Shown one piece after another: positions 2,521 through 45,510 of a stretch of 64,000 nucleotides of DNA (positions within the stretch are counted from its first letter, which is position 1; every line of letters begins with the position of its first letter). A program made the position numbers and the translations under genes. Where the stretch lies: the NCBI GenBank assembly GCA_963565915.1, contig OY751486.1:1178001-1242000 (forward strand), in the 5' to 3' direction. The stretch is from Entoloma clypeatum. Lineage: Eukaryota; Basidiomycota; Agaricomycetes; Agaricales; Entolomataceae. A model generated the notes under the pieces. The model made no database searches and was not told where the DNA came from. It saw only the letters and a program-made list of their open reading frames with translations.

Positions 2521-2598
2521 CCGACAGGCTCGGATGCGGACTTGTTCAAACTTCCGCTCCTTCCGCTCTTGGGCTGCCTCCTGGTGGCATGTCCGACA

Positions 2599-3174
2599 TC
2601 ATGCAGGACACCGGCTCATCTTCACTTCCCCTGATGTCCAATCTACCTCGGGGTTGTGTTCTTTGAGCCAAGTGAAGCCTAACACGATTTCTTGTTTTCC
2701 CAAACTTGTGACTGCAAGCTGGGTCCGTTCCGAGTGATCCCGATAGCGGAGCACTACATCCAACACCTCCGTTATTGCTCCGGCCTCATTTGGAGTTCCG
2801 TCGATGTTGTATACCGGAATTGCGTGTTGTAGTTTTTGAGTAGAGAGTCGATGTTTCTCGACCAAAGTGCGTTCAATAAACGACCCTGTTGCCCCACTGT
2901 TGAGTAAGGCCTTTTGTGATAGTGTGTCTTTGGTGTCGGTAGTTTCAAGAACTATGTCTAGTTCAATAGAATTGTCGGAGTGAGCGGAGGCGAGGACATA
3001 TTGTTTTGGAAGCCGACGCTCCCATTTAGAGAGGCGAAGGCGGATGGGATTTGCGGAGTTGGGTGCGACTATGGGATCGTTTGTAGGCTTAGAGATGGAG
3101 GGTATAGGATCATATTGTTCCATAAATAAGGCAGCATAACGATTTTTAGCAGACAACGAGGGCGCACTGTTCAC
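2599..3174 (-). CDS. Aspartic protease of chromovirus A
   Basis: Retroviral-type aspartic protease that would cut the Gag-Pol polyprotein. The catalytic triplet appears as LLNSGATGSFIERT: the usual LLDSGA of copy E is changed from D to N, so this copy is probably inactive. The reading frame overlaps the gag stop in the -1 frame (the gag TGA and the protease GTG overlap), so expression by -1 frameshifting or reinitiation is likely. The frame ends at a TGA that copy E also has. Confidence 0.85.
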   Translation of the reverse strand: MNSAPSLSAKNRYAALFMEQYDPIPSISKPTNDPIVAPNSANPIRLRLSKWERRLPKQYVLASAHSDNSIELDIVLETTDTKDTLSQKALLNSGATGSFIERTLVEKHRLSTQKLQHAIPVYNIDGTPNEAGAITEVLDVVLRYRDHSERTQLAVTSLGKQEIVLGFTWLKEHNPEVDWTSGEVKMSRCPA

Positions 3175-4325
3175 TCGCTGTGGGGAGGAAAATCCTCCTG
3201 TCCTTCCTCCGACTCCGCAGACTCCGTGGGCAGAACGGAGTTGCCTTCCGCTATGTCCTTGACCACGAGTTGTTCCATAACAAACTCATCCTGCTCCTCC
3301 GTTGTCATGAAGCGAACATCGAAGCGAAGGGGGCATTCACGACTAAAGTGACCCGTTTTGTTACATCTGAAGCATGCATTGGCATTCTTGCCTTTGACGC
3401 GTGAAGTATCGATGTCCATTGCATTGGGGTCCCTTGTCGGCGGAGCAGATGCGGATGCGAGCAGAGCTGTACGCGGAGTGAATGGAATGTAGGGGCGAGG
3501 GAATACTGAGGTGCCAGGTACTCGTGGTCCGACAGCGTTGCGGAAGGCGGAGGTGCGGGTCGGAGCAGTGGCTTTGAAGGCTTTGTTGGCAATCCTATTG
3601 TTGTCATTGGCTCATGCTGCAGAGTACCACTCATTGGCATTGTCATCCGCAGGCCGTCCGTGGGTCAGGGTGGCAATCTCGTTTTGAATGTCGGAACGGA
3701 GACCATGGCGGAATTTGAGTATGATGTTGGTATCCTCCTGATAGCCCGCTTTGTCAATGTAGTCTTTGAACTTGTCAATATAGGTCTCAACATCCCGTTG
3801 ACCTTGATAATAGGATTCTCCTTCGAGGATCAGTCTCGCGTCCTGTTCCTCATTCTTCGGAGTGAACTCCGCTGTAAAGACTGCATGGAAGTCTACCCAA
3901 GTCCGATAAGGTGGAGCACTGGTCCTCCGCTCCTGTCGGATAATGCGATCCGCAAAGCGTGCTGCATGTCCACTCTTCATGAAAGATAAGGCCCAATAAA
4001 TTTTAGCGTGGTCGTCTGCGAACTGTTCCGGAGCCAGCCCCATAAACAATTCAGAGGAGTTTAGAAAGGTCCAGCCATTTGCGCGTGATCCATCGAAGTC
4101 CGACGGATTGGCAGGTTTTGCTCGACGCACGCCCGGATTGGCCGGAGCGAGCGGAGTGGGTATAATAGCGGGTGCGGGAGCAGCTGGGATAGGTGGCGGA
4201 GCTGGGGCAGGAATTGCGTTGAAGGCGAGGAGGAGTTGGTCAAGTTGAGTCGAGATATCAGTGAGAGTTTGACATTGTTCCTGGAACTCGTGCTCGAGCT
4301 GTTCAAGGCGATTGGGGTCGTCCAT
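3171..4325 (-). pseudogene. gag of chromovirus A with one internal TGA
   Basis: Capsid/nucleocapsid protein. It starts MDDPNRLEQLEHEFQEQ, then a proline/alanine-rich stretch, a capsid-like domain (NPSDFDGSRANGW, YIDKFKDYIDKAGY) and a CCHC zinc knuckle (CFRCNKTGHFSREC). The frame is continuous from 4325 to 3171 except for TGA at 3612-3614, where copy E has CGA. One CpG transition therefore truncates Gag before the nucleocapsid. The length otherwise matches the intact 378-aa copy E (60509-61645). Confidence 0.9.
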
Positions 4326-4916: not shown

Positions 4917-5224
4917 CACTCCATATGGCCACCACCTCTGCACAACACCCACCACTCATGGCTAACGACCACCACTTGTGGCCAACCGCCCGCTATTGCC
5001 CCCTCAAGCGCCCAATGGCCTACTTTTGCGGACAACAGCCTCCGTTCATGCCCAATGCCTCCACCCACGCCCAACGGCGTCGACTCGCGCCCAATGGCCC
5101 CTCCTGTGCCCAACGGCCTCCACTCGTGCCCCACGGCCTCGACTCACCCCCAATGCCGCTCCACTCACGCCCAACGGCCTCCGTTCACGCCCAATGCCTC
5201 CACCCACGCCCAACGGCCACATAC
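4917..5224. repeat. Minisatellite, ~20-bp unit, left block
   Basis: Degenerate tandem repeats of about 19-21 bp with consensus close to CCCAACGGCCTCCACTCACG. Long open frames across it are products of the repeat and not genes. The same array continues at 22145-22276 and 22896-23095 once the inserted elements are removed, and occurs again at 59640-59903. In every place it touches a family-I LTR. Confidence 0.9.
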
Positions 5225-6274
5225 TCAACCTACCTTGTATTGTAATTTACGGTCCAGCGAAGACATACAGTGTATGGTATCGCTACAACACCAGCAAATT
5301 TACCACGGCGAACGGCAAAATAATAATGTCACCGGCGAAGAAAAAATGTCGCCGGCGACAACATCCAACAGATCGGCAAATAATTCACCGGTAAAAGACA
5401 TCATGGCAAAAAACCAGCAAAGGACCGGCGACAAACCGGCCGAATTGATGACCCATCGGCGAACGCGAGCCTTGAGTGCCGGCAACACTGCAAATGAAAA
5501 GAACGATGCTAACGACAGAGCGGCGAATAATTCACCGGCGAGAGACACCACAGCAAAAAACCTGCAAAAGACCGGCCACAAATCGGCGACAGGCCATCGG
5601 CGAATAAATGGGCCACCGGCGAAACCAAGTCTTGAGGGCCGGCGACACTGCAAATCAAAAGAATGATGCTAACGACAGATCGGCATATCATTCACTGGCG
5701 AAAGATGCTACAGTGAAAAACCAGTGAAAGACCAGCGACAAACCGGCGACAAACCGGTGACAGGCCATTGGCGAATAAATGGGCCACCAGCGAAACCAAG
5801 TCTTGAGGGCCGGCGACACTGCAAATTAAAAGAATGATGCTAACAACAGATCGGCATATCATTGACCGGCGAAAGATGCTACGGCGAAAAACTGGCCAAA
5901 GACCGGTGACAAACCGGCGACACAGCGACCGGCCATCGGCGAATTGATGACCCATCAGCAAAAGCAAGCCTTGAGTGTCGGCAACACTCCATATACAAAG
6001 AACAATGCTAACGACATATTGGCGAATAATTCACCAGTGACAGACACCATGGCAAAAAACCGGCAAAAAACCGGCGAATGTTGGATGATGTGCAACACAC
6101 ACCCATCAAACATGTCAAATACATGTAAACAAATGTCGAAAGATATTGCACATCTCCTCATTATATCTACACAGGAACAAGCAATGTTTGCTACTATATC
6201 AGATGAGTAGGGGAGCATGTTGTATCATCAAGTATGTATTTATTTTAAGAAAATTAGCCACAGATTTAAAGTTA
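5225..6274 (+). mobile_element. Left arm of a long-inverted-repeat DNA transposon
   Basis: Starts TCAACCTACCTTGTATTG, inverted-repeated at the right end (22144 backward). The arm holds several tandem copies of a roughly 120-160-bp unit rich in CCGGCGA and GCCGGCAACACTGCAAA (about 5300-6080), then a unique part (6085-6250) that is also inverted at about 20905-21100. Short open frames here are repeat-derived. I find no transposase. Chromovirus B interrupts the arm at 6275 and the arm resumes at 19506. Confidence 0.75.
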
Positions 6275-6824
6275 TGTCATAACCATACGATTCACATCCG
6301 ACTTATCCGACGACTCCGATGATTCATCCGCTCCGACATCCGCTCCAACAACATTCTATCTATATTGATTATACTTCTACTATGTAACATCTCAACCATA
6401 CTTACAAGTAGACATATGTTGTTCACTTTTCATTTGCTACTCTCCGTACTCCGAATGTTCCGATGGTCAACTCCGATATCTGCACATCACTTATAGTAAT
6501 ACTGATCATTCTAGTCTACTATAAATAGTGTACAAACCTGTTGTAGAACCTCAGTTCAAATATCATATGTTACACCTCATTTGCATCCGTCTCTACTTGC
6601 CTTGAGCATTCTCTCCGTCACCTCCGCTCATCCGCTCATCCGTTCATCCACTCATCCGACATCCGCCAATCCGAAATCGAGGACCACGTCAAAGAGTGGG
6701 GCGCAACGCACAAGTTGAAGCCAGGTCCTTTCTGCCAACGTCGCACTTACCGCATTCCGCTCCTCCACTACTCCGCTCCGACTCGTCCGACGTTTTCCGA
6801 CATTGAGAAACACGCTACATGACA
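6275..6824 (+). repeat. 5' LTR of chromovirus B
   Basis: 550 bp, TGTCATAACC at the left and GCTACATGACA at the right (TGTCA/TGACA termini). Near-identical copies occur at 12909-13308 plus 19355-19505 and, inverted, at 44831-45380 and 48098-48599 (element F). Confidence 0.95.
6520..6563 (+). promoter_or_regulatory. TATA box and predicted transcript start / self-primer of B
   Basis: TATAAATA at 6520-6527 lies 33 nt before AGTTCAAATAT at 6553-6563. That 11-mer is the exact complement of the PBS at 6827-6837, so the mRNA most likely begins at 6553 and primes itself. The start site is inferred from spacing, not measured. Confidence 0.7.
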
Positions 6825-6826
6825 GT

Positions 6827-6837
6827 ATATTTGAACT
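6827..6837 (+). promoter_or_regulatory. Primer-binding site of B
   Basis: ATATTTGAACT, two bases after the LTR, complementary over 11 nt to LTR positions 6553-6563. Family-related element D has a different but again self-complementary pair, which argues for selection on pairing rather than on sequence. Confidence 0.7.
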
Positions 6838-6875
6838 ACGACCATTCTTTGATATACCCAACAACCTCTACCCAC

Positions 6876-8168
6876 ATGTCTCAAACCCGTAATACAGTTC
6901 GAACAACTAGGACTGCTCGTGCAGCAGCAGAACGTTCATCCTCCACATCACGCTCTGCTTTTCTTCGAGGAACACGCAATGTAACCATTACCCCTCGAGG
7001 AGCCACAGCATCATCATCCGCTGCTACCCCCGGACCATCCGTTCCTCCGCCTTCTTCCGACTCTCAGCTCCCACCACTTCCTGCCAGTCCTCCACTAAAC
7101 CCACCAACGGAACCCTCCGCACCTCTAAATTCTGGCTTATTCGGCGGACCTCCAGGAGGATCTCCTCCTCCTTCTGACGGTAGTTTACATGGAGATTTGG
7201 ACGACTCCGATTCCAATCCAGATCAGGAACCCAATCTAGCTGAAGCCATTCTGCTCATGACCAAAGAGTTGAAACATCGAGATACAAAGAAGAAAAAGTC
7301 GTATGCCAACGAACCAGATACCTTCGACGGATCCGATCCACGCAAACTCTCCGCATTCATTTTACAATGCAAACTTTACTTCTCCAACAACGACAACTTC
7401 GACTCAGAACATTCCAAAGTCAACTTTGCCATGTCTTACTTCCGAGGCACAGCACTCGAATTTTTTGAACCCTTCATTCTTGACAATGATGAACCCAATT
7501 GGCGGGGTTCTTTCCCCAAGTTTGTCCGACTTCTCCGCTCCGAGTTTGGTACCATTGACCCTCAGGGCGAAGCCGAAGAACAGTTGGACAACCTAGGGAT
7601 GAAGGAAAATCAAAAGATATTGAAGTACAACGTTGAATTCCAACGTCTTGCTACCAAGACTGACTGGGATGAAAACTCCCTCCGACACCGCTACTACGTC
7701 GGACTTCCAGATCGGATCAAGGACATCCTCTCCCAACAACCCAAGATCAAGTCTTTACCAGACCTACGATCTGCGGCTCATACTATTGACGCTCGCTACT
7801 GGGAACGTCAACGAGAGAAATCCAGAACCGATAAACCCACTCCCAAGTCTGACAAGAAACAATCCGCTCCGAACCAATCCACTCCACAAACATCATCAAC
7901 CAAACCCTCCACTCCCGCTACCGCTTCCGCTTCCACATCCGCTCCAAAACCCGACCTCTCCAGTAAATTAGGCAAAGACGGCAAACTGATGTATCAAGAA
8001 TGCAAATGTCGTTTCAATAATAACCTTTGCTTATTCTGCGGTAGCGTCGGACACGCTGTCAAGGACTGTCCCAAGTCCACCTCCTCTGCTTCCAAGGCTA
8101 AAGGGAAGGCCGCCCAAGTCGGCACTCAAGCCAAGGAAAAAGGTAAGGAGATCGAGTCAAAAAAATAG
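6876..8168 (+). CDS. gag of chromovirus B
   Basis: 430-aa Gag. I chose the ATG at 6876 (MSQTRNTVRTTRTARAAAE) because it aligns with the gag start of element D; an in-frame ATG at 6819 lies inside the LTR. Features in order: a Ser/Pro-rich N-terminus, a capsid-like domain (ANEPDTFDGSDPRKLSAF, then YFRGTALEFFEP and HTIDARYWERQREKS), a Ser/Thr/Pro-rich linker, and a CCHC knuckle CLFCGSVGHAVKDC at about residues 385-398 that would bind RNA. It ends ESKK-TAG, directly on the slippery site. The frame is intact. Confidence 0.92.
   Translation: MSQTRNTVRTTRTARAAAERSSSTSRSAFLRGTRNVTITPRGATASSSAATPGPSVPPPSSDSQLPPLPASPPLNPPTEPSAPLNSGLFGGPPGGSPPPSDGSLHGDLDDSDSNPDQEPNLAEAILLMTKELKHRDTKKKKSYANEPDTFDGSDPRKLSAFILQCKLYFSNNDNFDSEHSKVNFAMSYFRGTALEFFEPFILDNDEPNWRGSFPKFVRLLRSEFGTIDPQGEAEEQLDNLGMKENQKILKYNVEFQRLATKTDWDENSLRHRYYVGLPDRIKDILSQQPKIKSLPDLRSAAHTIDARYWERQREKSRTDKPTPKSDKKQSAPNQSTPQTSSTKPSTPATASASTSAPKPDLSSKLGKDGKLMYQECKCRFNNNLCLFCGSVGHAVKDCPKSTSSASKAKGKAAQVGTQAKEKGKEIESKK
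8159..8165 (+). promoter_or_regulatory. Putative -1 ribosomal frameshift site (A AAA AAA)
   Basis: In the gag frame TCA AAA AAA TAG, the heptamer A-AAA-AAA fits X-XXY-YYZ exactly and is followed at once by the stop. A -1 slip gives ATA GGC AGT and a long open pol frame. The same heptamer and stop occur in D (30458-30464, minus) and F (46783-46789, minus). Confidence 0.65.
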
Positions 8169-11100
8169 GCAGTGGTCCTCATGAAGCACGGTCTGAGGAC
8201 TGCGTTGACTCTCTCCGTGCCTCCGCTCCCATCCGACTTAACGTGTCCGCTCTCTCCGATCCGAACTCTTTACGTATCAATATCTCATCTTCTTTTTTCT
8301 CTTCAGATTCTGTCCTAGCACTTATTGATTCAGGATCTACCCACTGTTTTATTGACATTAACTTTTCCTCCGCTTATGATCTTCCGACCTCCGCTATTCC
8401 GCCTTTAGAACTAAAGCTTTTCGATGGTTCTTCTAACGCGTTTATCACTCAAGTTGTAACAATACCTATATGTTTTCCTTCAGGTGAATCTTTTGAACAG
8501 GATTTTTATGTTACTCCGCTCGACTCCGCTTCTTCCGTGGTTCTTGGATACAACTGGCTCACCCGCCACAATCCTATGATTGACTGGGTATTGGGCAGTA
8601 TCACTTTCCGTCCACAGATGCAAAAAGAGCCGTTTCCGACATCGACGTCGACCCCCTCCCAAGGTAGGACAGCTACGCTTCCTCCTCCGGAACCTCCAAT
8701 CGTACCTCCGCAGATTTCACTCATTAACGCAGCCGCATTTATGAGGGCATGCAAATTGCCTGGTACACGATCCTTTCGACTTCACCTTTCGACTCCCTCC
8801 GTTTCCGCTCACTCCACATCCGCTTCCGACACCCCTGACTTGACAAACGTACCCGAAGAATACCACGACTATGCTGACGTCTTCAGTAAAGGAAAAGCAG
8901 ACACTCTTCCACCCCACCATCCCTACGACCTCAAGATCGAACTTGAAGAGGGCTCTGCTCCTCTGTTCGGTCCGATCTACTCCCTTTCACAAACCGAACT
9001 CAATGCCCTCCGTGAATTCATTGACGAACACCTCACCATTGGATTCATCCGACCCTCTTCCTCTCCGCACGGTGCTCCCGTCCTTTTTGTTCGTAAAAAG
9101 GATGGCTCCCTTCGTCTTTGCATCGATTTCCGTGGTCTTAACAAAATCTCAAAGAAGGACCGATATCCGCTTCCGCTCATATCCGACCTTCTCCAGACCG
9201 CTGGAAAAGCCAGTGTTTATACGGCTCTCGACCTCCGACACGCCTATCACCTCGTCCGCATAGTGGAAGGAGATGAATGGAAAACCGCCTTCCGCACGCG
9301 CTACGGGTCTTTTGAATGGCTTGTCATGCCATTTGGACTCACCAACTCCCCAGCCGTTTTTCAACGCTTCATGAACGACATCTTCCACGACCTGCTCGAT
9401 AAGTATGTTACCATATATCTCGATGACATCCTCATCTACTCCGACTCTCCCTCCGAGCATCGGAAGCATGTCCGCAAAGTCCTCCGACGTCTCCGACAAC
9501 ACGGCTTATACGCACACGCAGACAAATGCGAGTTTTCTACGGATACTGTTGAATACCTTGGCTTTATCCTCTCTCCGACAGGCCTCCGCATGTCGGATAA
9601 GAAAGTCAAAATTATTCAAGATTGGCCTGAACCAAGGAAGGTCAAAGACATTCAGTCTTTCTTAGGTTTTGCCAATTTTTATCAACGATTCATTCCTTAC
9701 TACTCCAAAATCACCGTTCCGCTCACTCGACTCACCTGCAAAAACACACAAATGCACTTCTCCGACTCCGCTCGGGAATCTTTCAAAACTTGAAGAAAGC
9801 CTTTACCACGGCACCTGTCCTTACACATTGGATTCCCAACAGCCCTATTATCGTCGAAACCGATGCCTCCGACTACGCTTTGGGTGCGATCCTCTCCATC
9901 GGCACCTCCGACGACGAAATCCATCCGGTCGCTTTCCACTCCCGCACCTTTACACCTCCCGAGTTAAACTATGACACCCACGACAAAGAACTATTAGCGA
10001 TCCACGATGCATTCAAGGTTTGGCGTCACTACCTTGAAGGCTCCGCTGCTCCGATCGATGTCATAACGGACCACAAAAATCTTGAGTACTTTTCTACTAC
10101 CAAGATTTTATCACGTCGACAAGCTCGTTGGTCTGAATACCTCTGCCAGTTCAATCTCGTCATCTGCTTCCGCCCTGGCCGTTTAGGTAAAAAGCCCGAT
10201 CTTTTAAGTAGACGATGGGACGTCTACCCTAAAGAGGGAAATAGCGACTATTCGTCCGTCAACCCAAGCAACTTCAAACCCATCTTCACACAAGAACAGC
10301 TCACCACTTCACTTCGCGCAACAGAGTTATATACGCCCGTCCTCCGTGCCACAATCATCATGGATACGGATCAGCTCCACTCCGACATCCTCTCCGCTCT
10401 TCCGACCGATCCCATTTACACCTCTTTCCTCGACAATCCTAATCCACGCTGGATCGTGAATGAAGCAGGTTATCTACTCCACAATGGTCGTATCTACGTT
10501 CCCAACTCATCCGACCTCCGTCTCTGCATCCTCCGCAATAAGCACGACCATATCCTCGCTGGACACCCTGGTCAAAATAAGACTATTAGTCTTATCCAAC
10601 GAGAATACACTTGGCCTGGAATGCGCGACTTCGTCAAAAAGTATTGCAAGTCAGTACCACTTGTATGCGCGCCAAACCCCAACGTCATAAACCCTACGGT
10701 CTGCTTAAACAACTCCCTATTCCTGAATGTCCCTGGCATTCTATTTCCATGGATTTCATTGAACCCCTTCCGACATCCGCTGGCTCCGATGCGATTCTGG
10801 TCATTGTAGACCGCCTCACTAAACAAGGCATCTTCATCCCTACCACCATTAATTGCACATCCGAAGACCTAGCAAACCTTTTCGTGCTTCACGTCTTTTC
10901 CAAGCACGGAGTTCCGCAAAATGTCACATCCGATCGCGGACCTGAATTCGTCTCCCGCTTTTTCCGCTCTCTTGCAAAAGCCCTCGACATGAGACTTCAC
11001 TTCACTTCTGGATATCACCCTGAAGGCGATGGTCAAACCGAACGCACCAACCAGACACTCGAACAATACCTCCGCATTTTCTGCAACTACCAGCAAGACA

Positions 11101-11828
11101 ACTGGTCCGCTTTGCTTCCGCTTGCGGAGTTTGCTTACAACAACACTCCAAGTGCCACTGCAGGTGTATCACCATTCTTCGCCAACAAAGGTTATCATCC
11201 CGACATTACACTCCATCCGGAACGTGATCTAGCATCCGATAAAGCTCGACAATACATCGTCGACTTAGATGAATTACATCAAGAACTAAAGACTGCTGTC
11301 GCAGAGGCACAACAACATTATCAAGGCCCTGCGGACGTCCGACGTTCTCTGCCTCCTCCGCTCTGCGTCGGACAAGAAGTATTTGTTAAAGCCAAGTTCT
11401 TCCGCACCACACGACCCACCCAAAAGTTATCCGACAAATATGCTGGCCCATTTGAAATCATAGCCCAACCCGGCACGCACTCCTTTACACTACGTCTACC
11501 CGACACCATGCGTGCTATACACCCCGTCTTCCACATATCCATGCTCGAACCAGCAACTCCTAACAAGATCCCAAATCGGATACAATCTCCTCCGCCTCCG
11601 CTCGAGATGGACGGAGAAACCGAATACGAAATTGCGGAAATCGTCGACTCAAAGATCGATAAAAGACGACGCTGCAAAATCCTTTACCTCGTCCACTGGT
11701 TAGGTTATGAAGACACCAGTGAAGAGTTTTCTTGGTTACCCGCATCCGAGCTTGAACACACAGCGGATACGGTAGCGGACTTCCACTCCGCTCAACCAAC
11801 TAAGCCAGGCCCCTTATCGCGCTTGTAA
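8165..11828 (+). pseudogene. pol of chromovirus B (PR-RT-RH-IN-chromodomain), two frameshifts
   Basis: Entered by a -1 slip from gag. Order: aspartic protease ([12 protein letters not shown] near 8310-8345), reverse transcriptase (VRKKDGSLRLCIDFRGLN, ALDLRHAYH, YLDDILIYSD near 9415), RNase H (VETDASDYALGAIL, TDHKNLEYF), integrase zinc domain (HILAGHPGQNK, then CTTC), DDE core (ISMDFIEPLP, TSDRGPEF, GDGQTERTNQ), and a chromodomain (EYEIAEIVDSKI, YLVHWLGYE). Comparison with D shows a lost A near 9788 and a lost T near 10654, each shifting the frame; the rest is open to TAA at 11826-11828. Chromodomains usually guide integration to marked chromatin. Confidence 0.9.
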
Positions 11829-11856: not shown

Positions 11857-12778
11857 TTATACTAACAAAAAACTACTTTCGCTGTTTTTTGTTAGATATT
11901 CTTTTTCTTCTTCTTCTTCTACCTCCCTTCCCAACTCCTCCAATACCCTATCATACTCCTCCGCATCCTCGTCCTCGTTGGATCCCTCCTCCAAAGCCTC
12001 CGAATCCTCCCTCCACGCGATAACCGTCAAAAGCTCCTTGATCTCCTGCAGTTCCTTCAACTCCGCCTTTATCAGCCGCATCTCCCTTATCATGCTCCTA
12101 AGCCCTCTCACCACCTCTGTGCCTATGACCACCTCCGGCGGACCAAACCCCTCCGGCATGAGCTCCGGCTCCTCTGACGCTGCGGCTATCCGCGATCCCT
12201 CCGCGGTCCCCTCTCCCTTGGACGATCCCGCCTTCACGTTCTTCGTCGCACCACCTGCCACCTTAGCCTTTCCGACCCTCACCGCCTTGGTCATCCTCCG
12301 CTTCTCCTCCGACTCCGCTTCCGCTCCCGTTCTGCAGCTTCGTTTTAAACGCTGGCACCGCCAGCACGACAAAGCATTGTCATTCCTAAAGAACAAGTTA
12401 ATAACGAAGCATATAAAGAAATAGAAAGACTTACTCTGATGGCCAAAAACACAAGTCCCCTGCTTTCAAGCAGGAGGTGCAATCCTCCTTTCCCTGCTCG
12501 TAACTCGCAGGCATATCCTTGAAAACCCCCTGCAGCCGGACTTTCTTCACCTCCGCAACTGCATCCGCACCCGCAACCGGCTCCTTCGCCTTCACTTTCT
12601 CTGCCTTCCTCTCTGCTTGTCTCTGCTCTTTCGCTGCTCTTTTCGCCTCCGCGCGCTCTGCATCTTCCTTCGCACGCTCCTCTGCCTCCTGCAGCTTCCT
12701 CTCCAACTCCTCGGTGACCTTCTTCTGGCGCTCCCTTTCAGCACGAAGAGCGGCGAGGGGTGAGTTCTCAGCGGACAT
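11857..12778 (-). CDS. Antisense two-exon Zn2Cys6 protein of chromovirus B
   Basis: Complement of join(11857..12385, 12435..12778), 290 aa. The 49-bp intron has a GTAAGT donor and a TTCTTTAG acceptor. Residues ~10-65 form a charged coiled coil; then six cysteines at 100, 103, 110, 122, 125 and 132 give C-x2-C-x6-C-x11-C-x2-C-x6-C, the full fungal Gal4-type binuclear zinc cluster, with the intron inside the central loop. The remainder is rich in Lys, Glu and Asp, with an acidic C-terminal tail. It is convergent with pol (28-bp gap). The protein in F differs by only two residues. A DNA-binding or regulatory role is inferred from the fold alone; no target is known. Confidence 0.8.
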
Positions 12779-12908: not shown

Positions 12909-13308
12909 TGTCATAACCATACGATTCACATCCGACTTATCCGACGACTCCGACGATTCATCCGCTCCAACATCCGCTCCGACAACATTCTATTTATATT
13001 TGATTATACTTCTACTACGTAACATCTCAACCATACTTACAAGTAGACATATGTTGTTCACTTTTCATTTGCTACTCTCCGTACTCCAAATGTTCCGATG
13101 GTCAACTCCGATATCTGCACATCACTTATAGTAATACTGATCATTCTAGTCTACTATAAATAGTGTACAAACCTGTCGTAGAACCTCAGTTCAAATATCA
13201 TACGTTACACCTCATTTGCATCCGTCTCTACTTGCCTTGAGCATTCTCTCCGTCACCTCCGCTCATCCGCTCATCCGTTCATCCGCTCATCCGACATCCG
13301 CCAATCCG
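12909..13308 (+). repeat. 3' LTR of B, first part
   Basis: First 400 bp of the 3' LTR, ending in the copia target duplication ATCCG (13304-13308). It continues after the insert at 19355. Confidence 0.93.
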
Positions 13309-13607
13309 TGTTGAAACTTTTCCATCACGTAGATTAGATTACATCACGTGACCTTTACACATCTTCGATTACATACTTGTTTGGTTGGTACAAACAGTAG
13401 TACGGTATATAAGACCAGGAAACTGTCAATGTCAACAAGTTGTCTCTTGACTCTTAACCAGCTCCATCGCTCTTACCAGCCTCAACCGCTCTCACCAGCC
13501 TCACCCCTCCAAACCATGTAAGTGGCTAGAACGGTTACATAGAGTACTTCCACTGTAGCTGTGTTGCTCAGTACATCTGTGGCTAGCGCCCAGGTGGAAC
13601 TTCAACA
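13309..13607 (+). repeat. Left copia LTR
   Basis: 299 bp, TGTTGAAAC to CTTCAACA, with a TATATAAG promoter motif near 13407. It differs from the right LTR (19051-19349) by one base in CGCTCTTAC versus CGCTCGTAC. Confidence 0.95.
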
Positions 13608-13620
13608 GGTTATGGGCCCC
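13608..13620 (+). promoter_or_regulatory. Copia primer-binding site, initiator tRNA-Met anticodon type
   Basis: GGTTATGGGCCCC directly follows the LTR. It complements the anticodon stem-loop (GGGCCCAUAACC) of eukaryotic initiator tRNA-Met, the half-tRNA priming known for Drosophila copia. Confidence 0.7.
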
Positions 13621-13972
13621 GGATAGCAGAGGGACTTGGGAATGCTGGCAACAGCAAGTACCTGCCCACTCTACCCTGGTTGACAGAAGAACCGATCGCA
13701 AGATCTAGGTTCTGAGTCACACTTCTTCACATATGAACCTGGGAAATGTCATTACGACAAGTACCTGTCATGAAGCGTCCCTAAGGGGATTGACTTAGTA
13801 CACATCATGTGGAAAAGTCGATCGTACCTCATACACTTCTGACACACAAAAAGGGTTTTTCCCCATGACCACTATTCCTGAAAGGAATATGCCATGAGGA
13901 ATCATTTACTTGTTTTCTCAAATTAAATTCATTATCACTAATTGGGAAAACCCTTTTTCAGATTCATTAAAA

Positions 13973-14534
13973 ATGTCTACCTCTCGCTCTGCTCTTGACG
14001 CCATCACCGCCTTCGACGGCATTGACTACCAAAGTTGGGCGGAAAAAATGAAGTCCTACCTCCTCCATCAAGGGGTCTGGCGCCTTGTCTCTGGCGACAT
14101 CCCTCGCCCTGATATCGCCGATTTCACTACCACGGTCTCCACTCCTGGCGCCACCGCTAGTGCTCCCCCGTGCTGGTCGCCGCGGTCGATCAGCCCGGCT
14201 TCCGCAAGGAAGAAAAGAGTTGGATCAGAGACGATGATATGGCCCTCGGGTCAATCCGACTCAAAGTCTCTGAGGCGATCAGACGCCACATCAAGGATAG
14301 CAACTCGGCTCTGGAAGCATGGACAATCCTAAAGGATAACTATTCAAAAGTAACCCCAGCCGTCATCTTCGGCGACTTCAAGGCGGCAGCTTCCTTCAAG
14401 CTGTCAGGTCGTGACCCGGTCCCTGAAATAGAACGCCTCGGAGCACTTTTCGCCCATCTCAGCGAGTTGAAATTCGATGTCCCTGATCTGATGCAGGCCA
14501 TGATCCTGGCAAGTGCCATTCCCGACGCCTGGCC
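13973..14534 (+). pseudogene. copia gag, N-terminal part, frameshifted
   Basis: Starts MSTSRSALDAITAFDGIDY, a UBN2/copia Gag-like opening (FDGIDYQSWAEKMKSYL). One base is missing near 14170: the second half (LVAAVDQPGFRKEEKSW, then SALEAWTILKDNYSK) is in the next frame. It stops at the joint with the inverted LTR, right after IPDAW. The matching remainder of gag starts at 19050 on the other strand. Confidence 0.85.
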
Positions 14535-14843
14535 TGTTGAAGTTCCACCTGGGCGCTAGCCACAGATGTACTGAGCAACACAGCTACAGTGGAAGTACTC
14601 TATGTAACCGTTCTAGCCACTTACATGGTTTGGAGGGGTGAGGCTGGTGAGAGCGGTTGAGGCTGGTAAGAGCGATGGAGCTGGTTAAGAGTCAAGAGAC
14701 AACTTGTTGACATTGACAGTTTCCTGGTCTTATATACCGTACTACTGTTTGTACCAACCAAACAAGTATGTAATTGAAGATGTGTAAAGGTCACGTGATG
14801 TAATCTAATCTAATCTAATCTACGTGATGGAAAAGTTTCAACA
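14535..14843 (-). repeat. Internal, inverted copia LTR (3' LTR of the pol segment)
   Basis: 309 bp in reverse orientation. It matches the outer LTRs except for two extra 5-bp GATTA-type repeats and one substitution. On the minus strand a polypurine tract (ATGGGGGGG) precedes it at 14844-14852, so it is the true 3' LTR of the minus-strand pol. Confidence 0.93.
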
Positions 14844-14911
14844 CCCCCCCATATTTAGTACATACTTCTAAATACATCTTACTTTTTCCCATATAGGTAC
14901 TCTTTTTTCGT

Positions 14912-17900
14912 CTAGTTTTCAAGTAATCCAAAGTACGGGATAAACTTGTTGAAGAGGATCTTCCCCAGATTCTTAGTTAAAAGGTCTGCAGGGTTATTTA
15001 CTCCTTCGATGAATTCGACCGTAATAATTCCTTCGGATACTTTTTCTCTGACAAAGTGAAATCGCACGTCGATGTGCTTGGACCGCTTTTCAGTCACAGG
15101 GTTGGATGCGATAAAGACGGAGCCATTGTTATCTCCATAGATCGGGACTGATCCGATCTGCATCCCAAGTTCGGCAAGCATGCTTCTAAGCCATGTCACT
15201 GCGCGACTGCAATCTGATAGCGCCATGTACTCTGCTTCCGTGGAAGAGAGGGCAATGGTTTTCTGTGCTGACGAAACCCATGTTACTGCTCCAGACGCCA
15301 GTGATATGAAGTAACCAGTAGTGGATTTCCTGGTGTTTTCATCTGATGCCCAATCGGAGTCTGTAAATGCGTAGATCCCTTTCCCAGAATCGCCATTGTA
15401 CATGATCACGTAATCTTTTGTCGCCTTCAAATACCTGCAAATATCCCTAGCCACTTCTAAATGGCGTTTGGTAGGGTTTGCGGAGAATTGGGACATTTTG
15501 ATCACGGCGAAACAAATGTCGGGTCTTGTCCCGATCATTAAGTACAATAGTGACCCGATGACGGATTGGTACTTGGATCTGAGTTCCGCATTGGGTTCAT
15601 CCTCAGACTTCATGGGTTTGTAGCCCATCAGAAGTGGGGTATGGGTGGCATTGGATTTGCTCATCCCCATACGTGCGAGAATTTTCTCAAGGTAGGGTAC
15701 TTGATCAATGAAGATCTTCTTCCCACGTTGCCTTATTTGGATTGAGAGAAATTCCTTTGGTTCCCCATCGGGCACTAGGTGACCTAGGTCCCTACATTCC
15801 CATGTTGTCATGAAGGCCTTCTTCTTCTCTAGCGTGTACTCTCGGTTTGTGCCGAGAAAAGCAGAGTCATCGACATAAATGACGGCGATTACAGTTTCCC
15901 CTTTGGTACTTGTGTGAATGAAAACTCCCGCATCGGAGTGAAGCCGGACAAAGCTGAGCTTTTTCATGGAGGAATTGAGTTCTCTCCACCAGGCTAATGC
16001 GGCCTGCTTGAGTCCGTATAGGGCTTTGTATAGTCGGTACACAAAGTTTTCTTTCCCTTTTACTATGTAGCCCTCAGGCTGTCGCATGTAAATCACCTCA
16101 CGGAGTCTTCCATAGAGGAAGGCTGATGAGACGTCCAAGAGTGTCATGAACCACCCTTCAAGGGCTGTCAATGCCAGTATTAGTCGGATGGTTTCATATC
16201 TCACGACTGGTGAGAAGATCTGATCAAAGTCGATCCCTTCTACCTGTGAAAAGCCTTTTGCGACGAGGCGTGCTTTCAGGTGGCCGTCGGACTTTTCGTT
16301 GTAAACCCATTTGTTCCTTAGAGCTTTCCTTCCTGCAGGCAGGGGTACTAGCTCCGTGATCACCCCGCGGCGTTTGAGCATGTCTAGCTCTTTACGTTCA
16401 GCCGCATACCAGTCTTCTTTATTTGGAAGAGGGTATATGTCTTTATGGGACATTTCAACGATGCCAACTTGGACTGATATTGCCTCCATCAGGAGGTCAT
16501 TCATCCATGCCGTTTGACCGCCCAATCTCCGTCTTCGATCTAATTTTTCAAGATCAGACGCTGGAGTGTCTTCCCCATAGATGCTTCCTGGCATCTTCCG
16601 AACTCGTCGTTCCCTGATCGGTCGATCTGGTACTTGCTCGGGTTCCGGAGTGGGTACTCGCGGTTCATCATCAGGCTCACTGGCAGGCAGTTCGTTGTCT
16701 GATTCAGGTTGATTCTGTTCAATGGGAACTGGGTCATGAGGTGTTTCGTTGTGACTATCATTGTCATCATTTCAGGGGATGAGGTCCTCAAACTCATCAG
16801 CTGGTTCTGGATTTTCCATTTCTGGATGGTTTTCTGGCAAAGGGTCGATGTGGCATCTGGGGTACTTGCTTTCATCGAAGATAGCTTTCCCACCCATGAA
16901 AATTGTATTAGTCTCAGGATCCATGAAATGGTATCCTTTGACCCCTGGTTTTGATCCGAGATAAATCATCAATCGAGATCTAGACTCCAGGGAATTTCTA
17001 CGTTTTTCCTTTGGGATATACACATATGCCTGACATCCGAAGACTCTGATGCTTGACATATCGGGGATCTCATTGGTCACCCTGAAGTAAGGGGTATTCC
17101 ATTCGAGACGCTGCATGGGGGTTCTATTGTAGAGAAACGCTGCATGTTCCAAACAGAATTCCCACCACATAGGGGGTAAGCACGCGTCGAAGCGCAAGGC
17201 CTGAGATTTCTCCCACAGGGTTCGATTTATCCGTTCTGCTCTACCGTTCTGCTGGTGCTGATACGGGAGTGTGACGTCGACCAGAATTCCATGATCGGCA
17301 AGTACATCCTTGTATTCATCAAACTCTCCACCTCCATCAACTCGCCATTTCTTAGGAGTGGCGGCGAACTGATTCTGGATCATCGCAAGAAATTGTCGCA
17401 GTGCCGTGATGGCATCCGACTTCTTTCTAAGCAAGACAACCCAGACGTGGGATGAAAAATCGTCCAAAAACGTGAGGAAATATTTATATTTATGATATGA
17501 TGCCGTGGATATCTGTTTGAGATCGGAATGGATTAGATCAAAGGTTTTGGTTGCCCTTGTCATCGAATTGGGATATGACTGATTCGGCATTTTCCCTTTG
17601 AGGCAACCTGTGCAACTTTCCTGTGATTTCTCATGTACTAGTGTCTCAGGTACCCCTTTGGTACTGGTGGGAATCTTTCGGAGTGCTTGATCATTTGGGT
17701 GACCAAGGCGCTTGTGCCATGTTTCGACAGTGATTTCGCTCGAGATCGCATGGATCTGGTCATAGCGTATTTCAGTGTCTAACCAGTAAATGGTTTGACC
17801 AAGGATGTGAGGCGTAAACTGGATTTTGTTCAGCCCTTTGGAGATATTGATTTCTCCACAAGTCCCGTCTACTTTGTAACCATGGTTAAGGAAGACGCCT

Positions 17901-18655
17901 AGGGACAATAGGCGTGTGTCCATGTCCGGAATGTAGAATACTGGTCTGAGAAGATGGGTTTTAACTTCCCCATTTAGGGTGTGCCATACTGGAACGGCCC
18001 CAACTCCGAGAATTTCCAGTTTTTTCCCTTTAGCTACAGTTTGGACGAAACGCTTGACCGTGAGAGGTCTATAATATGCGAAGTCCTTAAACTCATAGGT
18101 GAAGTGTAAAGAGGCGCCGGAATCTAAGATCCATTGCGCGCGTTCTTTTTCCTTACAGTGTGTACAAGAGGCAAAATGTTTAATATATTTTTTGTGTAGA
18201 TCACTGCTGAAGTGATCTACGCACTCTGTAGTGGTACTAGCTAATATGTTATATGTCTGTTGAGAGGCATAATTAGCTTTCCGCATTTGGTAAGGTTTGA
18301 GAGAAGAATGTGACGAACCGTCAAGTTCGATCAGCCCATCTTCGAATTGTTCCGGCCCCATCCGCTCGCTTTGATGGTCTATGTCCATCATCCTGAGGGA
18401 GTCATCCAAAGGCGGAGTGACTCGACGCTGCTTGGATGGTCTTTCATCTTCTTCTGGGATAATTGTATCCAGAATTCGAAGATTTGACCCTGAGGGACGA
18501 GCACCAATGCTCCACGCGAGTTTCCTGATGTGGTCATTCTTTTTCCACGCAGACGGCTTGCCCGAAGGAAGCCCGGTGTACTGGGATGGAGGCGGGTTCA
18601 TTCGCTGAAGGAGCGACTGCATTCTTTGAGAGTCTGGCTGGGCGGTACTCATCAT
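14912..18655 (-). CDS. copia pol (PR-IN-RT-RH) with one internal TGA
   Basis: One frame from ATG 18655 to 14912, broken only by TGA at 16772-16774 (after EFEDLIP). Order typical of copia: protease WILDSGASLHFT; GAG-pre-integrase WHKRLGHPNDQ with CTGCLKGK; integrase core (DLIHSDLKQ, DGGGEFDEY, NGRAERINRTLWE); reverse transcriptase (DQIFSPVVRYETIRLIL, VIYVDDSAFLG); RNase H (FTDSDWASDENTRKST, LSSTEAEYMAL). The stop probably arose from CGA. The start ATG overlaps the gag stop (ATGA), one frame back, suggesting reinitiation or -1 shifting. Confidence 0.92.
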
Positions 18656-19050
18656 TTTCCGCGCCCAGTGACGGTTGTGAAGGATGGTGGCGGAAGAGGA
18701 GGGAAGTGGATGGCAGGAGCGGACGTGTTGTCTGCATTGTTGGCGCTCTTCTTCTGATTGCGCCAGCGTCCTTTTCCCTTCTTCTTTTCAGAAGCGGTAC
18801 TAGGGTTGGTCGAGTTAGGCTGCTCGTCAGCATCGTTTTGCGAGGTACTCGGCTTTTGCTGCTTTTCCCATTTGGGGTCTTGCCCCTTTCGCTTTGTCCC
18901 GGAGATTTTCCGGGCCTGCTCATTGGACGTACAAGTGGACCCAATTGAATACTTGCGCCGGTACTCTGAGATGATGCTTTCCGCGACGGCTTTGTACGTG
19001 AAGTCGTCGGCGTCATAGACCTGGAAGAGGGCGGTGGAGAGCGACGACCA
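18652..19050 (-). pseudogene. copia gag, C-terminal part
   Basis: Reads WSSLSTALFQVYDADDFTY onward through a Lys-rich basic tail to TGA at 18652-18654, with no start codon of its own because the N-terminal half lies 4.5 kb away on the other strand. No CCHC knuckle is visible. Joining it to the plus-strand half gives a continuous product across the IPDAW/SSLS point. Confidence 0.85.
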
Positions 19051-19349
19051 TGTTGAAACTTTTCCATCACGTAGATTAGATTACATCACGTGACCTTTAC
19101 ACATCTTCGATTACATACTTGTTTGGTTGGTACAAACAGTAGTACGGTATATAAGACCAGGAAACTGTCAATGTCAACAAGTTGTCTCTTGACTCTTAAC
19201 CAGCTCCATCGCTCGTACCAGCCTCAACCGCTCTCACCAGCCTCACCCCTCCAAACCATGTAAGTGGCTAGAACGGTTACATAGAGTACTTCCACTGTAG
19301 CTGTGTTGCTCAGTACATCTGTGGCTAGCGCCCAGGTGGAACTTCAACA
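19051..19349 (+). repeat. Right copia LTR
   Basis: 299 bp, TGTTGAAAC to CTTCAACA, same orientation as the left LTR. Its left end is fused to gag (TGGTC on the minus strand) and its right end to the genomic duplication ATCCG. Confidence 0.95.
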
Positions 19350-19354
19350 ATCCG

Positions 19355-19505
19355 AAATCGAGGACCACGTCAAAGAGTGGGGCGCAACGCACAAGTTGAA
19401 GCCAGGTCCTTTCTGCCAACGTCACACTTACCGCATTCCGCTCCTCCGCTACTCCGCTCCGACTCGTCCGACGCTTTCCGACGTTGAGAAACACGCTACG
19501 TGACA
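19355..19505 (+). repeat. 3' LTR of B, second part
   Basis: Last 151 bp of the split LTR, ending GCTACGTGACA. Together with 12909-13308 it gives 551 bp, equal to the 5' LTR within one base. Confidence 0.93.
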
Positions 19506-20899
19506 GTTATAGTGGTCCTATGGTCTGAACCAAGTAATAGAAAACAATGCTAATAAGAGATCAGCAAATAATTCACTGGCAAAAGACACCACAGCACAAA
19601 ACTGGCTGTGGCGACAATGTTCTTTTGCTGGTCAATGAGTCACCATCTCAACGGTTATCTAGGGCATGTGTGCAGTGCCGGCAAAGCTGTAGACACAGTT
19701 GAAAGTGAAGCTTACCAGTTTATTTGTTCTAATACACCGTAGAAAGTCTCTCCCCACCACAGAACCATCTGGAGGTTCATTCCCGATTATGTGAGGATAT
19801 GAATAAAGATATGCGGATACCATGTAGAGGTAGAACATGGTGAAAAAAGCTGAAATGTATGTCCTCATCTTTGGCACAGATCATCATTTTATGCCTGCGG
19901 TGCAATCTGGGCACCTGTGTATGGCTATTCTCTAGTGTGAGTAGGTCTCAACGCATCAATAGTAAATGGTGTGATGTATAGATAGGTGTTAAAAAGTATC
20001 AGACAACTTGCACATCAAAAATATCTATGTATTCATCATCTGGCATTATTATTGTATGGTCAATAAATCTATAGATGGTTGTATAGGGTGTATCAGATGT
20101 ACATCTACTTGATACAAAAAGTTCCAAGAGAATCCATGCCATGTGGAAGACTGGAGATAAGACTTTGTCCAAAATATGTCTCAGAATCCCATGTGCATAA
20201 CAATGACAGTGTTGGGAACGAAATCATGTTTTCTACATTTCCCACTTGATGGGCCACAAGTTAACTAATGGATAGATGCCTATGAACTCATGAAAAGTAT
20301 ATATACAGCTGGATACTCAAGCTATGTATGATAGAGAATCTGTATTCTGAAATGAGAGATCAAAACACAGGCAAAATTGTGATGCAACAGTGCATCATGG
20401 GTTACTCCAAACACCAAAACCAATGTTTTCCTCCTTTCCCCTTTCCACAACCACTTTAGTCTACATGTACTGTTTGTATACCATTGAAACATTGTATGTA
20501 AACCTCCTCAGACCATTCAACTAAAGTTCAAGGACTTGATAAGGTGAATATGAGCAAAATAGGTCGAAAATTTGACCAAAATCTTTTATTTCACCTTTGG
20601 ATTCTCCACATTCAGGGGATCTCAGAACACCTTCATTTTTCAAATTTGGTTCATTCCTTAGGGAGATTTGACACTTTTCCTCAAATCTGCACATTTGATT
20701 ATTTCTATCATATCTGGACTTCTAAAAATTATACAAAGTGTGTCACAAGGTGAATACATATGCAGTCATGAGTCCTATTGCTTCAAACTATTATTAAATC
20801 ATGAGGAAGGCACCGTGCATGCCTGCGCAATGTCTTTGGTGCATTGTTTACTATTATTTGGTTCAGACCATGGGCCTCTATAACTTGGAATCCATGGCA
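19506..20899 (+). mobile_element. Interior of the long-inverted-repeat DNA transposon, no gene seen
   Basis: The first ~110 bp continue the left arm (the block near 19510-19545 is inverted at 20850-20885). The rest is AT-rich, with only short open frames and no recognisable domain. The element looks non-autonomous. Confidence 0.55.
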
Positions 20900-22144
20900 A
20901 AATTTGATAAAATAAATACATACTTGATGATACAACATGCTCCCCTACCTAACTGATATAGTAGAAAAGTTTACTTGTTCCTGTGTAGAGATAATGAGGA
21001 GGATGTGCGATATTTTTGGAGATTTGTTTACATGTATTTGACATGTGTGATGTGTGTGTGTCGCGCATCATGCAACATTGAACCCACACATCCACCCATT
21101 ACTGACTGTGCAATGAGGAGCACACATGCTGAAAAGCTCAGAATATATACATGGATTTTTATTCAATCAGTCATGAGCAGCACAAACTGGTCATAAGCAT
21201 CAAAAATGGTAAAAAACCATTACATCAGCATGGATTAAAGGCTTGCTTTCACTGATGGCCTGTTGCCGGTCTGTCGCCAGTCTTTCACTGGTTTTTGGCT
21301 GTGGTGTCTTTCGCCAGTGAATTATTTGCCAATCTGTTGTTAGCATTGTTCTTTGTATATGGAGTGTTGCCGACACTCAAGGCTTGCTTCTGCCGATGGG
21401 TCATCAATTCGCCGATGGCCTGTCGCCGTCTCGCCGGTTTGTCGCCGGTCTTTCGCCCGTTTTTCGCTGTAGCATCTTTCGCCGGTGAATGATATGCCGA
21501 TCTGTCGTTAGCATCATTCTTTTAATTTGCAGTGTTGCCGGCCCTCAAGACTTGGTTTCGCCGGTGGCCCATTTATTCGCCGATGGCCTGTCGCCGGTCT
21601 TTCACTAGTTTTTCACTGTAGCATCTTTCGCCGGTGAATGATATGCTGATCTGTCGTTAGCATTGTTATTTTAATTTGCAGTGTTGCCGGCCCTCAAGAC
21701 TTGGTTTCGCCGGTGGCCCATTCATTCGCCGATGGCCTGTCGCCGATTTGTGGCCGGTCTTTTGATGGTTTTTTGCTGTGGTGTCTCTCGCCGGTGAATT
21801 ATTCGCCGATCTGTCGGTAGCATCGTTCTTTTCATTTGCAGTGCTGCCGGCACTCAAGGCTCGCTTTCGCCGATGGGTCATCAATTTGCCGATGGCCTGT
21901 CGCCGTGTCGCCGGTTTGTCGCCGGTCCTTCGCTGGTTTTTCGCCGTGGTGTCTTTTGCCGGTGAATTATTTGCCGATCTGTTGGATGTTGTCGCCGGCG
22001 ACATTTTTTCTTCGCCGGTGACATTATTATTTCGCCGTTCGCCGTGGTAAATTCGCTGGTGTTGTAGCGAATTCGCTGCTTCCGTAATTTACCATACACT
22101 GTATGCCTTCGCTGGACCGTAAATTACAATACAGTGTAGGTTGA
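20900..22144 (-). mobile_element. Right arm of the long-inverted-repeat DNA transposon
   Basis: Inverted counterpart of 5225-6250, including the tandem units (about 21240-22050) and the terminal segment ending GTAGGTTGA at 22144. The end sequence TTACAATACAGTGTAGG is the inverse of the left start with a few changes. Flanks on both sides are the minisatellite, so the element inserted into that array. Confidence 0.75.
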
Positions 22145-24391: not shown

Positions 24392-24465
24392 ATCGCTGCA
24401 ATGGCCTTCGAGTCCTGTACATTTCGCCTTGCGCGTCGAGATGCCGCGCCTTAGAAGGGGGGTAA

Positions 24466-24958
24466 TGTAAGGGCAACCATCCAATTTCCTCAATCCAACA
24501 CCTCCGACACCTCCGACCCATTCTCCAACCCTCCAACCGTCGTGGTACGTCTATTATTTATATTACTATACTTTACGTTTCCTTTCGTTTCCATCTATCC
24601 TTCGACACCTCCGACCTCTGACACTTCCGACCCGTCCTCTGCGTCGGAGTGCACGTCGGAGCAATGATTTATACCACCACATGCACACTTCCAATTTACA
24701 TATTCCGTTTCCATCCCTACTCCTGATCTTTGTTGTATTTCAACATTCCTCTCCTCATTTCCAATTCTCGTCGTCTAGATAGCTGTCTAGCCTGCAAGGG
24801 AATCCTCAGAACTTTCTCTTTGGATTTCCCTTGCAAGGTATGCCTCGTATTGTACTTTGTAGAGTCTAATTTAACTTTGGATTTCCCTTGCAAGTCGTCC
24901 GACGTCGGAGTCGCTTCGGAGCACTTCGGAGTTGTTGGATCGTAAGGTCGCCCTTACA
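24466..24958 (+). repeat. 3' LTR of copy C
   Basis: 493 bp, TGTAAGGGCAACC to TCGCCCTTACA, preceded by a purine tract (AGAAGGGGGGTAA). It contains AGAACTTTCT at 24808-24817, the family self-primer. Confidence 0.9.
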
Positions 24959-31663: not shown

Positions 31664-31696
31664 AACTGGAATTTGAAATACGGATAAGCGAGTGGC

Positions 31697-31707
31697 AGTT
31701 TGAATAT
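31697..31707 (-). promoter_or_regulatory. Primer-binding site of D
   Basis: Minus strand ATATTCAAACT, two bases after the LTR, exact complement of AGTTTGAATAT in the LTR (minus strand, 31949-31939); 12 nt pair if the next base is counted. Confidence 0.7.
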
Positions 31708-45380: not shown

Positions 45381-45436
45381 GTATTTCCCTCTTAGGGCCG
45401 AACCCTGAGGCCCAGATGAGGTAATCCACGTGACCA

Positions 45437-45447
45437 TTGGTTGAAAA
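45437..45447 (+). promoter_or_regulatory. Conserved upstream motif of the antisense gene (F)
   Basis: TTGGTTGAAAA, with CACGTG just upstream at 45427-45432, 64-84 nt before the ATG at 45511; same as in B. Confidence 0.5.
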
Positions 45448-45510
45448 GCTTGCGCGTGATTTTTCTCTCTTGTCACCTAACCACAACATCTATCCTGTTG
45501 TCTATCTGCT

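Follow-up and report, generated by a model that had tools for sequence, protein, structure and literature searches.

Boty-like elements of Botrytis cinerea, reportedly studied by Zhao in 2011, are said to carry an antisense gene called brtn. HBZ of HTLV-1 is spliced and has a bZIP coiled coil. VANDALs are DNA transposons, and we know of no zinc cluster in their product VANC. Gal4-type Zn2Cys6 factors share a layout of Cys6 cluster, linker and dimerisation helix and recognize CGG-type sites, with CGG as the half-site.

Genes that lie antisense in the interval from pol to the 3' LTR (aORF-3R) are described, in the available parts of two papers, for Retand (with a TRP28 domain), Grande (gene23), RIRE2 and PvRetro13 (PMC11963269, PMC7264820). 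A 2020 review lists such genes for plants as well as for Boty of Botrytis and Sclerotinia; in its sections at hand, no clear similarities to database proteins are described for them, and a search for antisense and spliced transcripts is called for (PMC7264820). The brtn gene of the B. cinerea elements is likewise documented in parts of four sources (PMC8365987, PMC7264820, PMC5987419, PMC4227169). The gene described here belongs to this known class, of which it is a new, zinc-cluster-like variant. Its likeness to the aORF-3R genes lies in equal place and orientation and may extend to carriage by most copies and to nuclear or DNA-binding properties, which are reported or proposed for those genes; however, those are plant elements, Retand belongs to a non-chromovirus lineage, and a zinc cluster and cassette exchange go unmentioned in the available parts of both papers (PMC11963269, PMC7264820). 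The word 'intron' is absent from PMC11963269 and PMC7264820, and 'zinc' is absent from PMC11963269. With the Boty elements it shares a fungal Ty3/gypsy background, a chromodomain and the presence of an extra, antisense gene (PMC7264820, PMC4227169, PMC8365987, in part), although the Boty host is an ascomycete and BRTN, known to us from partial sources, is likened by description and not by sequence. HBZ is, in the passages at hand, also an antisense-encoded nuclear retroelement protein with an antisense promoter in the 3' LTR (PMC11963269, PMC7264820), but it has a bZIP instead of a zinc cluster and is again likened by description alone. VANC of the Arabidopsis VANDALs is element-encoded, combines conserved with highly variable parts and has a short motif in the tandem repeats of its element; motif binding and methylation loss are reported for it in the part of the source at hand (PMC5735166), whereas the present gene is known from sequence.

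Within the window (the whole 64-kb stretch of DNA that was analysed), three Ty3-type elements, B, D and F, each carry an antisense gene of two exons that begins 130-166 bp from their own 3' LTR. In element B, exon 1 (12435-12778, minus strand, 344 nt) encodes a coiled-coil-like region and the first half of a cysteine cluster; it is followed by a 49-nt intron (12386-12434) and by exon 2 (11857-12385), which encodes the second cluster half, a helix and an acidic region and has lost its native C-terminus through a 79-bp deletion. The plus-strand gene of element D comprises exon 1 (26470-26867, 398 nt), a 49-nt intron (26868-26916) and exon 2 (26917-27388), with the native C-terminus SNKKQRTK. That of element F, also on the plus strand, comprises exon 1 (45511-45854), the intron (45855-45903) and exon 2 (45904-46432), with a C-terminus truncated as in B. 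Splicing out the 49-bp GTAAGT...TTTAG intron yields uninterrupted reading frames, with 290 amino acids in B, 289 in D and 290 in F. These spliced ORFs bear out, at exact coordinates, the two-exon gene that the initial annotation had proposed for the three elements. They likewise confirm that the intron splits the cluster at one common site, between Cys3 and Cys4, and that the six-cysteine cluster has the two claimed spacings, C-x2-C-x6-C-x11-C-x2-C-x6-C in B and F and C-x2-C-x6-C-x8-C-x2-C-x6-C in D. When all six frames of the window are scanned, C-x2-C-x6-C turns up 13 times, with paired occurrences exclusively in the genes of B, D and F.

The gag-pol region of element B (6827-11828, plus strand, in several frames) starts next to the 5' LTR (6275-6826, plus strand, placed by alignment), contains matches to a zinc knuckle (below cut-off), protease, RT, RNase H, integrase, SH3_Tf2-1 and a chromodomain, and stops 28 bp short of the antisense gene. 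On the other side of the gene lies the first part of the 3' LTR (12909-13308, plus strand), which resumes at 19348-19507 past a nested copia element. Element D, on the minus strand, has its 3' LTR at 25820-26303, 166 bp from the gene start, its 5' LTR at 31710-32193, and a pol (27416-30031; part of RT, RNase H, integrase, SH3_Tf2-1 and chromodomain) that stops 27 bp short of the gene. In element F, also on the minus strand, a gene-proximal LTR (44831-45380) and a distal LTR (48096-48599) were located by alignment to the B LTR; gag occupies 46780-47751, and pol was not found. In B and D the gene thus has pol on one side, with which it converges tail-to-tail, and the 3' LTR on the other, whereas for F the proposed location holds on the LTR side. 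The further observation that the gene is open while gag and pol are broken stands, with gag/pol of B and D spread over several frames and F devoid of a pol match. Element F as a whole (44831-48599) is a pol-less derivative retaining gag and the antisense gene, and its end lies 2 bp from the LTR repeat of the G element (48602).

The pol genes of the two gene-bearing lineages, B and D, are 68-79% identical. A-type chromoviruses are more distant from both (46-47% identity in RT, 32% at the integrase end), and because 74 bp (window positions 24391-24466), 11 bp (L064) or 11 bp (L065) separate their pol stop from the 3' LTR, their ends leave no room for the gene. A Pfam-family search for more chromovirus ends, in which 150 of 2,087 candidates were scored, was dominated by candidates whose frames reach as much as 1,356 amino acids; the two of its places that were read (C2:1243441 and C5:1205628) are gene-less A-type. 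Among the chromoviruses looked at, the gene is confined to the B/D lineage.

Searches of the same 60-Mb genome at the DNA level scored 40 of 145 B-type and 40 of 183 D-type candidates, and the resulting copy numbers are lower bounds. Sixty-seven copies were read, including B, D and F of the window: 22 B-type and 10 D1-type copies with flanks, 20 D2-type copies as gene only (19 chosen by tblastn score, and L060 from the DNA search), 12 D2-type copies with LTR, and 3 odd B-type copies. A full spliced ORF, defined as at least 280 amino acids, is present in 56 of the 67. By set, these are 16/22 B-type and 9/10 D1-type copies, where the flanked copies are top DNA matches and not a random sample; 19/20 D2-type gene-only copies, where the 18/19 among L041-L059 is biased upward by selection for high tblastn score; 12/12 D2-type copies with LTR; and 0/3 of the odd copies (L061-L063), which were fetched as odd matches. 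The position that characterizes aORF-3R genes recurs: in 30 of the 32 flanked copies the matching LTR precedes the ATG by 130-166 bp, all 12 further D2-type copies have an LTR at 166-168 bp, and a pol end follows the gene downstream in 31 of 32. The gene is open in 16/22 B-type copies, compared with 14/22 for the last part of pol (an open stretch of at least 390 codons), and in 9/10 flanked D-type copies compared with 7/10, although the copies were located through the gene itself, so that copies lacking it would be missed. One further B-type place (G000:C11:3756054-3756991) matches the B query over its full length and may share the C-terminal deletion of B and F.

Exon and intron lengths behave differently in the 56 full-ORF copies. 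Exon 1 has 13 lengths, all 56 congruent to 2 modulo 3, in a set that was preselected for an open frame; yet all 12 D2-type copies chosen by DNA match are open. The intron has 10 lengths (48-57 nt), distributed 22/15/19 over the three frame classes, and the longer introns arise from the T-run ahead of the 3' splice site. In a group of 11 copies (L068-L078), introns of 50-57 nt differ by single bases in this T-run and are otherwise alike. Splice sites and a branch-point-like TTAAC/CTAAY are present in 56/56 copies. Intron-less copies had been suspected from single-block matches, but two of these (L061 and L062) carry the intron, and searches with joined exon ends found no intron-less junction among the 40 scored of 121 and 40 scored of 143 candidates; the matches listed are single exon ends, some reaching up to 8 bases beyond the junction. 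Survival of the intron is understandable, since the gene is antisense to the RNA that is reverse transcribed.

An alignment of five representatives reveals a conserved layout of coiled-coil-like N-terminus, Lys-rich stretch, Cys6 cluster, Leu-rich helix, acidic stretches and a C-terminal SNKKQR(T)K. The KKRKV-like Lys-rich stretch of D is presumably similar to a nuclear localisation signal. Two features of the cluster do not vary in the same alignment, an SSC whose last residue is Cys4 and a Lys located between Cys5 and Cys6. The six-cysteine motif, as the pattern C-x2-C-x6-C-x(5-12)-C-x2-C-x(6-8)-C, is found in 54 of the 56 full-length copies, the exceptions being L038 and L059; among the first 44 full-length copies, the total number of cysteines is five or six in 36 and seven in 8. 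With 56/67 full ORFs, 54/56 six-cysteine motifs, and splice sites plus a branch-like site in 56/56, the gene is not a product of chance. The initial description of the cluster as Gal4-type holds for the cysteine spacing, and the likeness extends to the following linker, a putative dimerisation helix and CGG-type candidate sites. However, with Pfam Zn_clus (PF00172) B scores 10.6 bits and D 6.8 bits, short of the gathering cut-off of 21. The strict Zn_clus signature calls for a small residue ahead of Cys1 and for basic residues in the stretch from Cys2 to Cys3, and is found in 0 of the 56 full-length copies; here Lys/Arg lie between Cys5 and Cys6, i.e. in the second half of the cluster. Unlike Gal4-type factors, the protein is also retrotransposon-encoded. 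Because of the sub-threshold Zn_clus score and the failure of the strict signature in 56/56 copies, we call the protein zinc-cluster-like.

Protein length over full copies is 284-324 amino acids. The native C-terminus is kept in 54/56 full-length copies, with B and F as exceptions. Comparison of B with L022 reveals a 79-bp deletion near the 3' end, shared by F and followed by a frameshifted tail, whereas full-length B-type copies without it encode 314-324 amino acids ending in ..SNKKQRK (compare ..SNKKQRTK in D). The 290-amino-acid product is therefore not the native form, since B and F read into the frameshifted tail; this truncated form exists as two near-identical copies, B and F. An acidic tail, also proposed initially, is clear in B-type L022 (net charge -16 over residues 251-300) and weaker in D-type L012 and L060. 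The D protein had been judged otherwise very different from those of B and F, and this needs qualification: the start, the cluster, the Leu-rich helix and the last 7-8 residues align. Three D-type sequences are 34-38% identical to a B-type protein, compared with the 68-79% identity of pol, so between these two types the antisense protein changes faster than pol does.

Selection was assessed from dN/dS (NG86), first raw and then stratified by substitution class to take account of CpG changes. Raw values are 0.06-0.56 in the printed pairs and 0.14-0.47 between subfamilies. Such values were rejected as proof of strong constraint because CpG decay lowers the ratio, and in 19 D2-type copies CpG changes account for 155 of the 253 variable sites that have two states. 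By class, omega is mostly 0.2-0.8, with many values non-significant. For L060 versus L044 it is 0.33, 0.32 and 0.22 (p = 0.014, 0.0098 and 0.15), for L012 versus L060 it is 0.60, 0.67 and 0.59 (none significant), and for B-type transitions it is 0.25 (p = 0.005). In contrast, B-type transversions give no sign of constraint, with 16 nonsynonymous and 1 synonymous for L001-L022 (omega 3.4, p = 0.34) and 5 and 0 for L022-L037. The dN/dS check envisaged at the outset therefore comes out below 1 in the printed pairs, partly through CpG decay, and runs the opposite way for B-type transversions. A comparison of singletons with shared variants gives an odds ratio of 0.51 (Mantel-Haenszel p = 0.07) for non-CpG sites and 0.69 (p = 0.10) with CpG sites; it is suggestive and significant in no single family. 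We take these values as signs of purifying selection on a fast-evolving protein.

Much of the variation between D-type copies resides in a hypervariable cassette of exon 2, which spans approximately 27010-27340 (plus strand, ~330 bp) in element D as judged from L012 versus L060, and corresponds roughly to gene positions 540-870, between the cluster and the C-terminus. Per 40-nt window, L012 and L060 are 52-92% identical in the cassette and 95-100% identical to either side. Identity between element D and L066 (D2) is 98.3% for the LTR, 97.2% for exon 1 and 98.2-99.5% for pol, and falls to 78.4% for exon 2; for D and L067 (D2) the corresponding values are 95.9%, 91.5%, 95.9-98.0% and 76.1%. Exon 1 of L060 is of the D1 kind (99.0% identical to L012, 93.2% to L044) and its cassette is of the D2 kind (95.9% to L044, 75.6% to L012). 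Because L060 joins the two, parts of the gene have recombined. Both cassettes are multi-copy, as among the scored candidates of the DNA search some places are 88-97% and others 81-83% identical to D. The divergence of the cassette preserves the frame: 68 of 116 residues agree between L012 and L060, the nonsynonymous fraction is 0.655 compared with a neutral 0.754 +/- 0.035 (p = 0.003), and the chance of encountering no stop is 0.011. A change of LTR specificity through the cassette is unsupported, as D1 and D2 LTRs are 98.3% identical.

The LTRs of the gene-bearing elements carry dense arrays of TCCG in the sense strand (CGGA on the gene strand), with 23 sites in the B 5' LTR, 17 in the gene-proximal LTR of F and 21 in the D 3' LTR, and 0 in the other orientation; in the 3' LTR of B, too, the CGGA sites form an array on the gene strand. 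There are 12 (B), 9 (F) and 12 (D) direct pairs at a distance of 6-11 nt, compared with 0.07-0.13 expected, and 0/500 shuffles reach these counts. Flanked copies with an LTR have 4-23 gene-strand CGGA each in the stretch counted, with opposite matches in L012 (2) and L016 (1). Element-borne tandem arrays of a short motif, as known for VANC, are thus present in B, D and F, and in weaker form in gene-less chromoviruses. The gene-less LTRs A1, A2 and A3 have 6, 11 and 8 sense-strand sites, plus 5, 3 and 3 in the other orientation, and 1 (reached by 58/500 shuffles), 6 and 4 close sense-strand pairs, respectively; A1 has 2 further pairs in the other orientation (0.02 expected). Exclusivity of the arrays to gene-bearing elements was accordingly rejected, since A2 and A3 have them. 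The copia LTRs have no sense-strand site, with none at all in C and one in the other orientation in G. CGGA also exceeds the shuffle level in the chromovirus bodies at 994-4325, 6827-11828 and 27416-31700, with a strand bias in B and D and near symmetry in A. Because gene-less relatives share the arrays and CGGA is enriched in bodies, the arrays are a candidate target and not proof of one. To this extent the suggested action on LTRs finds a plausible substrate, though weaker arrays in gene-less chromovirus LTRs speak against it.

A protein database search found no relatives of the D protein among 7,991 scored candidates or of the central B-type part among 470. The corresponding pol control gave 5,071 relatives among 7,995 scored candidates, with mushroom names among the best 120, so fungal elements are present in the database; the negative nevertheless carries little weight, since gene prediction copes badly with a two-exon, low-complexity gene and exon 1 by itself would be removed by the length filter. 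Viral contigs gave no match for the antisense gene and none for integrase, and a PDB sequence search gave no match for the antisense protein. No zinc-cluster antisense gene in a fungal LTR element was found in the open-access literature among the matches listed.

The antisense gene is real, with a conserved intron and signs of selection. The claim of a conserved retrotransposon-encoded gene is supported, as frame, splice sites, cysteines and C-terminus are kept in B-, D1- and D2-type copies with an LTR beside 30/32, and the best explanation is that one lineage of chromoviruses has it as a stable third gene. For its product, we favour the role of a self-encoded nuclear regulator of LTRs, the most likely reading and one to which we give about an even chance. 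The gene would be read antisense to gag-pol, towards pol, from a start 130-166 bp inside the 3' LTR, a geometry that fits the suggested drive from the 3' LTR side. Removal of the short intron would yield a protein of 284-324 amino acids with an N-terminal coiled-coil-like region, a basic NLS-like stretch, a Cys6 module that may bind zinc, a Leu-rich helix and a basic C-terminal peptide. This protein would enter the nucleus, bind the direct-repeat CGGA arrays in the LTRs of its own element and control sense transcription of related copies, most likely by activating or unsilencing them. Against this reading count the Zn_clus score below cut-off, the lack of a PDB match, the arrays in gene-less LTRs and CGGA in element bodies, as well as the B-type transversions with no sign of constraint, the suggestive but not significant singleton test, the loss of the native C-terminus in B and F (although this form exists in two near-identical copies) and a cassette swap that is unaccompanied by an LTR difference. 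A more elaborate version, in which the antisense-borne factor and LTR operator arrays form a zinc-cluster activator or anti-silencing system, with an interaction cassette traded between lineages by recombination under host silencing pressure and gene-less chromoviruses with weaker arrays riding in trans, is rather unlikely.

Several other explanations bear on the same data. Since gene-less chromoviruses and element bodies also carry TCCG/CGGA, the arrays may serve a host zinc-cluster factor, which the element protein would mimic or block, unless it has other targets such as host genes. The arrays in gene-less A2 and A3, and more weakly in A1, and the enrichment of CGGA throughout chromovirus bodies suit this view, but gene-bearing LTRs have 17-23 sites in one orientation compared with 6-11 plus 3-5 opposite ones in gene-less LTRs, and the LTRs of copia elements C and G are without a sense-strand site; we consider it a doubtful account. 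Equally tentative is a role for the protein as a nucleic-acid-binding replication helper, not a transcription regulator, whose zinc cluster and basic stretches would bind element cDNA or RNA in nuclear import of the preintegration complex, chaperoning of cDNA or RNA, or choice of integration site. The basic C-terminus kept in 54/56 full-length copies is consistent with such a role, and participation in retrotransposition, including nuclear entry, is discussed for plant antisense aORFs in the sections at hand of the 2020 review (PMC7264820). However, as the product of an antisense transcript the protein would stand outside the packaged polyprotein, and the LTR arrays would be left unexplained.

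Two further readings dispense with a function for the protein. That the antisense transcript itself acts, through dsRNA or antisense control of gag-pol, with the protein incidental, is in keeping with an RNA that would run towards pol and with the non-coding antisense RNAs known from other elements in the available part of the review (PMC7264820). It is highly improbable given that frame, splice sites, cysteines and C-terminus are maintained across the D1/D2 and B/D divergence, and that the free drift seen in intron length is not shared by the exons. Scarcely credible is an ORF that is open by chance on a purine-rich strand, or a host gene carried along as a passenger. The protein is indeed of low complexity and encoded by such a strand, and the sense strand has long open stretches too, but stop-free copies occur only in the frame of the antisense gene (11/22 B-type and 3/9 D1-type copies, in a scan that overruns the gene's own stop slightly in some copies and whose D2 part, two copies obtained via a narrow filter, is not relied on), the 13 exon 1 lengths fall into one frame class, and the gene occurs in two lineages whose pol is just 68-79% identical. 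Because a recognisable motif, an orientation-marking intron, a candidate LTR site, natural cassette variants and dozens of copies come together in this family, the function of such antisense genes becomes directly testable.

Other features of the window concern the surroundings of these elements. The copia-type element nested in the 3' LTR of B (RVT_2; 13306-19347) has LTR stretches that are 99% identical. Diverged tandem repeats of ~150-170 bp at 5391-6060 and 21248-21982 form two inverted, related arrays. Short CCGTTGGGC-type repeats, or their complement, lie directly outside A-type LTRs at 4960-5230 and ~59500-59920, and also past the LTR of L064.
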